Of a stretch of 52,320 nt of DNA, positions 36,195 to 39,331 are shown one piece after another. Position numbers and translations under genes: made by a program. The first letter of the stretch is position 1. Each line of letters opens with the position of its first letter. The notes under the pieces are model-generated. The model was not told where the DNA came from. It saw nothing but the letters and a program-made list of their open reading frames with translations, and searched no databases. The DNA comes from an uncultured Alphaproteobacteria bacterium (lineage in GTDB: Bacteria; Pseudomonadota; Alphaproteobacteria; CAAHEQ01; UBA3637), in contig CALXXA010000034.1 of NCBI GenBank assembly GCA_944392585.1, positions 1 to 52,320 on the forward strand, in the 5' to 3' direction.

Positions 36195-36219
36195 AATCAA
36201 TTATATGAAAGGGAGAAAA

Positions 36220-37005
36220 ATGAAAGGATTATGGGCAATTATTTTATTAGCTTTGTTGGTATGGGGGTATATTTATTACCGAAACAATCAGTATTCAACT
36301 TTGGGGGAAATTGCTGTTCCTTCTTCTGATCCGCAGGATACTTATGAACCTTTAATTCTGGGAAATAAAGATAAAGGAATATGGTCTATCGTTGCTAATG
36401 CTGCCGAATTAAAAAAGGAAACTCTTTCTGTCAGTCCTAAAACAGGAGAGAAATCTCAAACAATACATGTCTTGCCTGAGCAACCAAGAATGATGGGGAA
36501 GGAAAATGCTCCGATTACGATGTATTTGTTTTCCTCATTAACTTGCAGCCATTGTGTGGTATATCATCTGAAAACTCTACCTGAATTGGAAAAAAAGTAT
36601 ATTGATACCGGGAAAGTAAAGTTGGTTTATATTGACTTGCCTTTTGATCGTAGAGCATTGGCCGGCGCTATGTTAACAAGGTGTGTCAAACCGGAAACAT
36701 ATTGGAAGTTTTTGAATGTTTTGTTCGAAAATCAAGATCAATGGGCTTTTAAAGAAAATGCTCAGGATATCATCGAGAAATATGCTGCTCTGGCCGGATT
36801 GGGCAAAGCAGATATGCAGTCTTGTTTGTCAAATAAAATCTTACAGCAGTCGTTGATACAAAACAGAGATATTTTTATGGAAAAATATGATATTCAAGGG
36901 ACTCCTACAACCGTTTTAATAAAAAATAATATTATTAAAAAAATTGTGGGGGCTGATTTGAAAGAATTGGAGGACGCTATTAATGCGTTGGATTCTCATG
37001 AATGA
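36220..37005 (+). CDS. Membrane-anchored DsbA/thioredoxin-like thiol:disulfide oxidoreductase
   Basis: 261 residues from the ATG at 36220, chosen because GGGAG precedes it; an upstream ATG at 36205 overlaps that RBS. An N-terminal membrane helix (about 2-18) anchors a thioredoxin-fold domain with active site CSHC near residue 106-109 (LTCSHCVVYH) and the cis-Pro loop GTPTTV near 230. This fits the DsbA/BdbD class that oxidises or isomerises periplasmic disulfides. The cysteine-rich secreted protein at the left end is a conceivable substrate. Its last codons overlap atpI, so it may be co-transcribed with the F0 genes. Confidence 0.85.
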   Translation: MKGLWAIILLALLVWGYIYYRNNQYSTLGEIAVPSSDPQDTYEPLILGNKDKGIWSIVANAAELKKETLSVSPKTGEKSQTIHVLPEQPRMMGKENAPITMYLFSSLTCSHCVVYHLKTLPELEKKYIDTGKVKLVYIDLPFDRRALAGAMLTRCVKPETYWKFLNVLFENQDQWAFKENAQDIIEKYAALAGLGKADMQSCLSNKILQQSLIQNRDIFMEKYDIQGTPTTVLIKNNIIKKIVGADLKELEDAINALDSHE

Positions 37006-37303
37006 ACAAGAACAGATTCTTATTAAATCCAAAGAATTGGAAACAAAAATAAAAAGTCTTCATGAACAAGTTGCCGAAAAAACTTCTGATAAGACAAAAC
37101 AGCAAGACGTAAGTTTGGGCGTTGCTATTATGTCGGATTTGTTGGGAGGAATTATCGCCGGGGCTGCAATTGGGTTTTTAATTCAGCAGTTTTTTGATAC
37201 AAAGCCGTTTGTCTTAGGAATTTTTATTTTCTTGGGAGGAATTGCCGGTATATTAAATGTTTATAAATATGTTCGTCGAGCCGAGAAGAGGGAAAATAAG
37301 TGA
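36983..37303 (+). CDS. atpI: ATP synthase accessory protein AtpI
   Basis: 106 residues. A charged, partly coiled N-terminus followed by two membrane helices (about 42-64 and 70-92), with DLLGGIIAGAAIGFLIQQFF as the typical alphaproteobacterial AtpI sequence. AtpI helps assemble the c ring and may bind magnesium. It starts inside the DsbA-like gene; GGAGG 9 nt upstream supports the ATG at 36983, although one at 36998 is possible. It overlaps atpB by 4 nt. Confidence 0.88.
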   Translation: MRWILMNEQEQILIKSKELETKIKSLHEQVAEKTSDKTKQQDVSLGVAIMSDLLGGIIAGAAIGFLIQQFFDTKPFVLGIFIFLGGIAGILNVYKYVRRAEKRENK

Positions 37304-38028
37304 ATATTCAGCCTTTAGAACAATTTGAATTGAAAACTCTTATCCCAATTCGTATAGGATCGATAGATATTTCTCTGACGAATTCCAGCGTTTCTATGAT
37401 TTTGGCGACGGTGCTTGTTTTGTCCTTAATGTTTGTTATGACACGGCGGTTGAAAATTATCCCGCATCCTGCACAGTCTATTGTTGAAGTTTTTTATAGC
37501 TTTATAGCTAAAATGGTCTATGAGACAATAGGGATGAAAGCTGAAAAGATTATTCCATTTATTTTTACTTTGTTTCTTTTTATTTTATTTGGAAATCTTT
37601 TAGGATTATTCCCTTATACTTTTACTTTTACGACTCATCTGTCCGTTGTGGGAGCTATGGCTTTGCTAGGATTGACTTTGTCAACAGTTATAGGAATATA
37701 TCATCAAGGATGGGAGTGGTTACGTGTTTTTTTCCCCATCGGAGTTCCTGTTCTGTTGGCGCCGATTATTATTCCTATAGAAATTATTTCCTTTTTATCA
37801 AAACCATTTAGCCTTACCGTTCGATTGGTCATGAATATGGTTGTCGGGCACATTATGTTAGATGTAATAGCGGCATTCGTGGTGGTTTTAGGATTGGTTG
37901 GTTTTGTCCCTTTATTTTTTGTGGGTATTCTTATTATTTTTGAAGCGGGAATAGCATTGCTTCAAGCGTATATTTATACTATCTTAACATGTATTTATTT
38001 ATCGGAATCTTTTGAAAAACAACATTAA
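37300..38028 (+). CDS. atpB: ATP synthase F0 subunit a
   Basis: 242 residues with a GTG start overlapping the atpI stop (GTGA). Subunit a forms the two proton half-channels against the c ring. The essential Arg is in FSLTVRLVMNMVVGHIML near residue 170-187, where the family has S-L-R-L-F-A-N-M-x-x-G-H. About six membrane helices. FGNLLGLFPYTFT near 95-107 is also typical. Given the odd c subunit, its interface with subunit a deserves attention. Confidence 0.95.
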   Translation: MNIQPLEQFELKTLIPIRIGSIDISLTNSSVSMILATVLVLSLMFVMTRRLKIIPHPAQSIVEVFYSFIAKMVYETIGMKAEKIIPFIFTLFLFILFGNLLGLFPYTFTFTTHLSVVGAMALLGLTLSTVIGIYHQGWEWLRVFFPIGVPVLLAPIIIPIEIISFLSKPFSLTVRLVMNMVVGHIMLDVIAAFVVVLGLVGFVPLFFVGILIIFEAGIALLQAYIYTILTCIYLSESFEKQH

Positions 38029-38040
38029 AAGGAGAAAATT

Positions 38041-38286
38041 ATGGAAGAGAATTATTTACAATATATTGCACAAGCTGCGAAGTATTTATCAGTCGGTATT
38101 TGCAGTTTAGTTATGATTTCTGTTGCCAGATGGGTCGCAGAGGTTTGGATTACGATTATTTCCTCAATCTCTCGGAATCCCAGTGCGAAAAATGACATTA
38201 CCTTGTTCGGATATATCGGGGCTGGTATGACAGAGGCGATTGCTCTTTATGCATTAGTTTTAGCCTTTATGATGTTATTTTCATAA
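38041..38286 (+). CDS. atpE: ATP synthase F0 subunit c with atypical helix 1
   Basis: 81 residues. The polar loop SRNPSAKND (Arg45) and helix 2 with the ion-carrying Glu65 (GMTEAIALY) are normal. Counting from Arg45, the helix-1 glycine motif positions hold Ser27, Ala29, Trp31 and Ala33; only Gly19 remains in the stretch. Arg30 and Glu34 lie in the same helix, four residues apart, on one face. The site facing the carboxylate, equivalent to Gln32 in sodium-type rings, is Val32, so a proton ring is likelier. The motif controls helix packing and ring size in other bacteria. The RBS is GGAG. The gene is intact and placed correctly in the operon. Confidence 0.93.
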   Translation: MEENYLQYIAQAAKYLSVGICSLVMISVARWVAEVWITIISSISRNPSAKNDITLFGYIGAGMTEAIALYALVLAFMMLFS

Positions 38287-38300
38287 GATAGGTCTTTGGT

Positions 38301-38795
38301 ATGCCTCAGTTTGAACTTTCTTGGTTCCCAAGTCAAATTTTTTGGTTGGTTGTTTGTTTCTGTATTTTATATTGGACAATTTCGCGGATTTTATTGCCTC
38401 CGGTTGTTCGTGTTATGAAAGAGAGAGAGCAAAAGATCCAATCTGTTTTAAGGCAGGCCGATGAGTTAAACGCCCAAGTCGATCTTTTGATACAAACACG
38501 CCATAAATACTTAAATAAAGCTCAAGAGAAATCTGATGAAATTATTCAAAAAGCTCATGAAGAAATTACCAATAACCATATTCTGCAAGAGCAGCATTTT
38601 TTAAATGTGTTAAAATCAAATACTGCTAAGACCGAAAAAGAATTAAATGCAAAACGAAGAGAAGTTTGTTCTCACCTGAAAAATATAACAATCCAATTTT
38701 TAGAAATTATTTTTAAAACAATATATCATGTTCATCCTCGTAAAAGCTCAATAGATAAGGCAATGGATGCTCATTTGAAGGAGTTTTCTAAATGA
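38301..38795 (+). CDS. atpG: ATP synthase F0 subunit b'
   Basis: 164 residues. An N-terminal membrane helix with PQFELSWFPSQIFWLVVCF, typical of the b' form, and a long charged helix (about 40-140) forming the stator stalk. Paired b' and b subunits occur in alphaproteobacteria, cyanobacteria and chloroplasts. It starts 14 nt after atpE and overlaps the b gene by 4 nt. Confidence 0.92.
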   Translation: MPQFELSWFPSQIFWLVVCFCILYWTISRILLPPVVRVMKEREQKIQSVLRQADELNAQVDLLIQTRHKYLNKAQEKSDEIIQKAHEEITNNHILQEQHFLNVLKSNTAKTEKELNAKRREVCSHLKNITIQFLEIIFKTIYHVHPRKSSIDKAMDAHLKEFSK

Positions 38796-39331
38796 ATACA
38801 ACGCTTGTCTTAATACAAGATGTTATTAAAACAGAATCTTTTTGGAAGGCAATAGCTTTTGTTCTTGTTGTTTTATTGACGCTTGCTCCTGTTTATACAT
38901 TTTTAATGCGGCGAATGCAACAACGCTCTGTTCAGATTCAAAATCATATTAAAGAAGCTTTAAAGCTGCGGAAAGATGCTAAAGACCTTTTAGAGGACTA
39001 TAAAAAAAAGGACGCTTTAAAAGAAGCCGAACAGTTGGATATCTTAGAAAAAGCAAGAAAAAATGCGGCGATCTTAAAAAATGAGGCCCTGATTCAGTTG
39101 AAAGAGCGTCAACGAATGAAGGAAAAAGAAATTTTAGACCGTGTGAAGATGATGAAATTAAATGGTTTAAAGGAAATTAAAGATGATGTTTTGGCGTTTG
39201 CTGTTAAAACAACAACTTCTTTTATGGAAACAGATGATAAATTTCGTTCTGAAAAGGAATTTTTTGATCATGCTTTGAGTGAAGTTGAGCACGTCTTAAG
39301 TGATACAAAAGAAGTTGAAAAAGTTTTTTAA
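38792..39331 (+). CDS. atpF: ATP synthase F0 subunit b
   Basis: 179 residues. One N-terminal membrane helix (about 18-37), then RRMQQRSVQIQNHIKEALKL and a long charged helix that forms the stator with b'. It is the last F0 gene; the F1 genes are not in the window, as usual in alphaproteobacteria where F0 and F1 operons are separate. Confidence 0.92.
   Translation: MNTTLVLIQDVIKTESFWKAIAFVLVVLLTLAPVYTFLMRRMQQRSVQIQNHIKEALKLRKDAKDLLEDYKKKDALKEAEQLDILEKARKNAAILKNEALIQLKERQRMKEKEILDRVKMMKLNGLKEIKDDVLAFAVKTTTSFMETDDKFRSEKEFFDHALSEVEHVLSDTKEVEKVF

Follow-up and report, generated by a model that had tools for sequence, protein, structure and literature searches.

The c subunit of ATP synthase (AtpE) encoded in the window, that is, in the whole stretch of 52,320 nucleotides that was analysed, is a genuine and unusual form of the F-type c subunit. 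Comparison of sequences indicates that it represents a small-genome gut family, referred to here as f1, which appears to carry a charged residue where the rotor interior of the relatives is hydrophobic. The determinants of c-ring size are incompletely understood, and c-ring lumens have been described as normally hydrophobic and filled with lipid (PMC5323039; PMC6897951). The conserved charge in f1, which is predicted to face the lumen, and the charge of opposite sign in the sister clade would allow ring packing and the filling of the pore to be studied as an experiment made by nature.

Identity and setting of the window c subunit

The translation of the atpE ORF (81 residues) agreed exactly with the residues listed in the first-pass annotation: Ser27, Ala29, Arg30, Trp31, Ala33, and Glu34, with Arg45 in the loop and Glu65 in helix 2. 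Numbered with the loop Arg as Arg45, helix 1 reads Met25-Ile-Ser27-Val-Ala29-Arg30-Trp31-Val-Ala33-Glu34-Val-Trp36. The glycine motif is indeed nearly gone, with S-A-W-A at positions 27, 29, 31, and 33. A Pfam profile search matched AtpE to PF00137 with 34.3 bits (cut-off 24), whereas the scores were below the curated c-subunit cut-offs of NCBIfam (57.9 against 85 for NF005733 and 26.9 against 43.95 for TIGR01260). Since AtpE lies above the Pfam cut-off and under the NCBIfam equivalog cut-offs, it can be recognised as a c subunit but has diverged. Its top sequence matches in the PDB were mitochondrial c subunits, the best being 5fl7. The AlphaFold2 single-chain model (pLDDT 81) was all helix, with helices at residues 2-45, 47-51, and 54-80, and its best fold matches in the PDB were c subunits, with weak E-values. 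AtpE has the helical hairpin, the conserved polar loop, and the ion-binding acid in helix 2 by which c subunits are recognised, and atpE is encoded with other F0 genes, between atpB and atpF'/atpF (Table 1).

Table 1 Features of the atpE region in window coordinates
Feature	Position	Strand	Basis
atpI-like ORF	36983..37303	+	PF09527
atpB, subunit a, essential Arg in FSLTVRLVMNM	37300..38028	+	profile matches, alignment
atpE, F-type ATP synthase subunit c, 81 aa	38041..38286	+	ORF, PF00137, AlphaFold2 model
Remnant of the helix-1 glycine motif (Ser27, Ala29, Trp31, Ala33)	38119..38139	+	alignment
Arg30 codon AGA, basic residue, predicted to face the lumen from spinach c14 equivalents (PMC6897951)	38128..38130	+	K/R in 27/27 distinct f1 sequences
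Trp31 codon TGG	38131..38133	+	one gain on the tree; single 8-genome clade only
Glu34 codon GAG, evolutionarily labile polar position	38140..38142	+	alignment, tree
Loop Arg45-Asn46-Pro47, intact	38173..38181	+	translation, alignment
Ion-binding Glu65, intact	38233..38235	+	translation, alignment
atpF', subunit b'	38301..38795	+	profile matches
atpF, subunit b	38792..39331	+	profile matches

AtpE did not fall into three established subtypes. Its S-A-W-A sequence is neither the canonical GxGxGxG motif (Gly at 27, 29, 31, and 33) nor the AxAxAxA motif of alkaliphiles. Na+-type c-rings combine Gln or Glu at 32 and Ser or Thr at 66 with Glu65, and AtpE has Val32 and Ala66; because neither Gln32 nor Ser66 is present, AtpE is probably of the proton type. 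The c subunits of Alphaproteobacteria and mitochondria (Yarrowia/yeast c10, Paracoccus c12) share with AtpE the hairpin, the RNP loop, Glu65, and the operon order atpI-B-E-F'-F, but AtpE differs from them in the reduction of the motif and in the basic residue at the presumed lumen position 30. Alkaliphilic Bacillus rings of the AxAxAxA type (c13; PMC2914638) and the Gly-to-Ser ring of Bacillus TA2.A1 resemble AtpE in having small non-Gly residues in the motif, whereas no lumen charge or Trp has been reported in them at the AtpE positions.

The window corresponds to contig C34 in a draft genome of 1.16 Mb and 55 contigs. This genome encodes two rotary ATPases, namely an F-type enzyme (F0 on C34, F1 on contig C6) and an N-ATPase, or alternate F1F0 enzyme, on contig C47. 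The window genes scored best on F-type models and do not belong to the N-ATPases. The C47 operon looks complete, and its c subunit is orthodox, with Glu32, Glu65, and Thr66 (loci L001 / L261); its b and a genes scored best on the alt_F1F0 models, yet under their cut-offs. This second enzyme is of the kind known from B. pseudomallei (c17; PMC5376962); the N-ATPase c subunit has Glu32 and an uncharged residue 30, unlike that of the F-type window operon. Since the other c gene belongs to this separate operon and C6 carries the F1 genes of the F-type enzyme, it was ruled out that AtpE is a paralogue or a pseudogene.

The named relatives are gut metagenome assemblies labelled Alphaproteobacteria, largely from ruminants and other herbivores, an affiliation that would suit the GTDB order RF32. 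Five f1 genomes (G005, G009, G011, G022, and G029) gave no F-type c match. PF00006 hits numbered four in G009 and three in each of the remaining four; three is the count expected of an N-ATPase and Rho only. Some members of f1 may therefore have lost the F-type enzyme. In the window, a DsbA-like thioredoxin-fold gene (36205-37005) lies directly upstream of atpI, and a similar gene was found upstream in another genus (L030).

When the window gene was compared with the relatives that carry Trp31, pS was mostly 0.65-0.9, which is near saturation, and pN was 0.04-0.12. AtpE in the Trp31 clade is under strong purifying selection. The earlier view that the gene seems used, taken from the intact Glu65 and operon, is supported. 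Glu65 of AtpE and the essential Arg of subunit a are conserved. A draft genome in 55 contigs could raise the suspicion of misassembly or sequencing error. However, the same residues were found in different codons in eight separately assembled genomes (position 30 is encoded by AGA, CGT, AAA, and AAG), which refutes this explanation and leaves it practically no weight.

Residues 30, 31, and 34 among relatives

The reference set consisted of one or a few genomes from each of ~150 alphaproteobacterial families, and the c subunits were aligned on the loop. For comparison we used 126 distinct F-type alphaproteobacterial c subunits outside f1 and the other clades described here, together with a phylum-wide sample of 46 distinct c sequences, some of them alphaproteobacterial, from which 15 of the best-scoring loci were left out since they gave no loop that could be aligned. 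Residue 30 was Lys or Arg in all 27 distinct c subunits of f1, whereas the comparison set had I, L, V, M, A, W, T, or F at this position and a charged residue in none of the 126. The phylum sample had only I, V, or L at 30 and G or A at 31, so that neither a charged residue 30 nor Trp31 was found among the 46. Position 31 in the comparison set was Gly in 118, Ala in six, and Ser in two sequences, and Trp in none. Trp31 was present in six distinct sequences; these came from eight genomes, each assembled separately, that belong to three genera. Non-Gly residues at 27, 29, and 33 occurred in 9, 17, and 9 of the 126, respectively; Gly-to-Ala or Gly-to-Ser changes at these positions are therefore uncommon but not unique. 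Position 34 was mostly Asn in the comparison set, with Lys or Arg in 11 of the 126. Glu34 was confined to f1, where it occurred in 8 of the 27 sequences, the remainder having Gln, Ser, or Thr. Because position 34 is normally polar, Glu34 is the least unusual substitution of AtpE. The first-pass annotation had regarded the bulky Trp and the two charges as unexpected; the alignment with alphaproteobacterial AtpE upholds this for the charge at 30 and for Trp31, which are not frequent in ordinary c subunits, and not for Glu34.

No firm case was obtained for residues in helix 2 that compensate for Trp31. Gly62 accompanied Trp31 in six of six sequences but was also found without it, and Ile59 and Val73 were common outside f1 as well. 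Trp at position 30 itself was observed in L071 and L213, which belong to two other lineages of the gut clade.

The history of these positions was traced on an AtpB tree of 90 sequences with SH-aLRT support. The gut lineages formed one clade (49 rows, support 98), in which f1 was sister to a second gut clade, L060-L076 (support 83), and the Trp31 sequences formed a single clade of eight (support 96). The minimum number of changes on this tree was two for charge at 30, one for Trp31, and 11 for charge at 34. Most simply, a positive charge at 30 would have been gained once and reversed once to a negative one; the proposed ancestor with Lys30 depends on the branch of modest support (83). The second gut clade resembles f1 in having a charge at 30 and an altered glycine motif (x-A-G-S), but it differs from AtpE in retaining Gly31 and a normal separate delta subunit, and in carrying Lys26, Glu30, and Lys34, an i/i+4/i+8 ladder of charges along the putative lumen stripe. 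Its basal member L062 has Lys30 and Lys34 without an acidic partner. As read from these sequences, the new feature that has been conserved is the charge at 30, and its would-be partner at 34 is labile.

Orientation of residue 30 and the inner ring surface

Positions 28 and 32 of helix 1 face the helix-2 carboxylate, as do Ala24 and Ile28 of E. coli. In an ideal helix, residues 30 and 34 lie ~3 Å below and above residue 32, respectively. By crude idealised geometry, the beta-carbons of 30 and 34 within one chain are 6.4 Å apart, and those of neighbouring residues 30 in the ring are 5-7 Å apart, with the handedness of this ring assumed. In the spinach c14 ring, the residues that line the pore are Ala7, Ile11, Leu15, and Leu19; towards the inside, a water molecule connects Val26 with Thr30 (PMC6897951). 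Adding 4 to the spinach numbering gives positions 11, 15, 19, 23, 30, and 34 of AtpE. It is thus inferred that 26, 30, and 34 form a lumen stripe, while the motif positions 27, 29, 31, and 33 would make the contacts between helices. A charge in the lumen is well supported by sequence and homology, and the predicted orientation of residue 30 follows from this homology together with helix geometry. The two charges had originally been placed in the packed inner ring; the homology to spinach c14 (PMC6897951) moves both of them to the lumen side. No charged lumen residues in c-rings were found in the literature collection searched.

We consider it probable that AtpE is a working proton-type c subunit and that a clade of gut Alphaproteobacteria has remodelled the inner surface of its c-ring. 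Gly29 and Gly33 were replaced by small non-Gly residues, a basic residue 30 appeared and was kept, and Trp31 came later in the subclade of the window. Residues 30 and 34 would line the lumen on either side of the level of Glu65. Close to the narrowest point of the pore, each ring would then contain a basic belt of side chains, in a zone that is hydrophobic in other rings. We propose that this belt can be tolerated since the side chain of Lys or Arg at 30 could snorkel to the polar cytoplasmic vestibule at 34 (Glu, Gln, Ser, or Thr) or to anionic head groups of the lipid plug. With bulkier contacts through Ser, Ala, and Trp, the inner helices would probably pack less tightly or form a ring of larger diameter. 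Such widening is plausible by analogy with Bacillus rings, in which Ala or Ser in place of Gly in the motif leads to wider rings (PMC2914638), and with the c17 ring of the N-ATPase, in which changes of the glycine motif go together with a larger ring (PMC5376962); a review likewise describes enlargement of rings by changes in this motif (PMC7003800).

The first-pass annotation had explained the same residues by an intramembrane salt bridge between Arg30 and Glu34 in the packed inner ring, which together with Trp31 would widen the ring. The i/i+4 spacing is about right for such a pair, as the idealised distance between the beta-carbons indicates, and changes in the motif do widen rings elsewhere. 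However, Glu34 is restricted to a minority of f1, charge has changed 11 times at 34 against twice at 30, and both residues are expected from homology to face the lumen and not the interface. Since the charge at 34 is labile, the salt bridge was rejected as the selected unit, and we regard this explanation as improbable. A similarly low probability is given to drift, in which gut bacteria with reduced genomes would tolerate a degraded glycine motif that has no functional meaning. The small genomes (1.0-1.8 Mb) agree with it, as do Lys34 or Arg34 and losses of Gly in some other small-genome Alphaproteobacteria, but it leaves unexplained why the charge at 30 is kept in every f1 sequence through exchange of Lys and Arg, with only two charge changes on the tree, and why pN is so far below pS.

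It is unlikely, if slightly less so, that the basic belt is a site for a specific occupant of the lumen, such as an anionic lipid, a small protein, or a cofactor, and not a consequence of packing. Known pores are filled by densities without an assignment, which could be isoprenoids or lipids (PMC6897951), and an occupant would fit the retention of the charge at 30 without its partner within the helix. Against this, no candidate partner was found, and the reversal of sign in the sister clade, with its Lys26/Glu30/Lys34 ladder, fits self-compensation better. The rebuilding of the inner ring surface around residue 30 is the reading we prefer.

Delta-alpha fusion in the F1 part

The AtpA of the window's genome is encoded outside the window, on contig C6 (L254:2262-4082), and is 607 residues long. 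Its residues 10-85 match the C-terminal half of delta/OSCP (PF00213 positions 97-172, E 8e-15), and a complete alpha subunit follows. The ATG at L254:2280 has a Shine-Dalgarno-like AAAAGGGG in front of it. AtpA of f1 is ~600 residues long, and in 21 of the 21 f1 genomes tested the C-terminal domain of delta was fused in frame to AtpA and the N-terminal domain of delta was gone. A PF00213 search of the same 21 genomes found a separate delta gene (atpH) in none; the other PF00213 hits in f1 were only in frames of 255-266 residues, like the b gene of the N-ATPase. An open, fused frame of 594 residues was also present in G415 (L059) and in G070 of family f38. An ordinary full-length delta was found in eight of the nine genomes of the second gut clade tested and in the outgroups G034, G053, and G195, and among the other Alphaproteobacteria that matched best, most have a stop codon between delta and alpha.

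Ueno et al. (2025) engineered a delta-deltaN-alpha fusion in the Bacillus PS3 enzyme, which led to up to three peripheral stalks and an H+/ATP ratio of 5.8, and proposed Acidaminococcus fermentans as a natural case (PMC12229609). The window's enzyme has the features of this design, namely the OSCP C-terminal domain fused in frame to the N-terminus of alpha, the loss of the N-terminal domain, and no separate delta gene. It differs from the PS3 construct (PMC12229609) in being natural and alphaproteobacterial and in having a heterodimeric b/b' stalk and, as predicted, a remodelled c-ring. Since the fusion corresponds to the engineered design, the natural f1 enzyme can be regarded as a candidate for a multi-stalk ATP synthase, one whose c-ring has also been rebuilt. 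The f1 family would be a second candidate natural case, from a phylum different from that of Acidaminococcus, with the fusion fixed in the f1 genomes tested, and the proposal of natural multi-stalk ATP synthases made in 2025 becomes testable in a second, unrelated lineage.

An F1 part with this fusion could accommodate several peripheral stalks and a subunits, and additional stalks and a subunits would raise the H+/ATP ratio in cells where none of the respiratory-chain components searched for was found. The search covered nuoH (complex I) in the window's genome and CydA and Rnf/Nqr in 13 f1 genomes, and it was negative for all of them. From these negative results, the cells may plausibly live at low proton motive force, where a high H+/ATP ratio would be an advantage. 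It is possible, and we put it forward only tentatively, that ATP synthesis in the whole gut family depends on a natural multi-stalk enzyme with as many as three stalks and three a subunits and a c-ring with a charged lumen, and that its H+/ATP ratio exceeds those of the natural enzymes known so far. Because Lys30 is present in L062, which belongs to the clade with normal delta, the lumen charge probably arose before the fusion. No functional connection has to exist between them, and to propose one is speculation.

The gamma subunit of f1 is ~355 residues long (L254:4081-5145, L255-L260), compared with the usual ~290, owing to an insert after the strand that ends with EQIVPIQ. This site is presumably that of the regulatory insert of chloroplast gamma, near the residues that contact the c-ring. 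An insert at the same place was larger in G053 and almost missing in G195.
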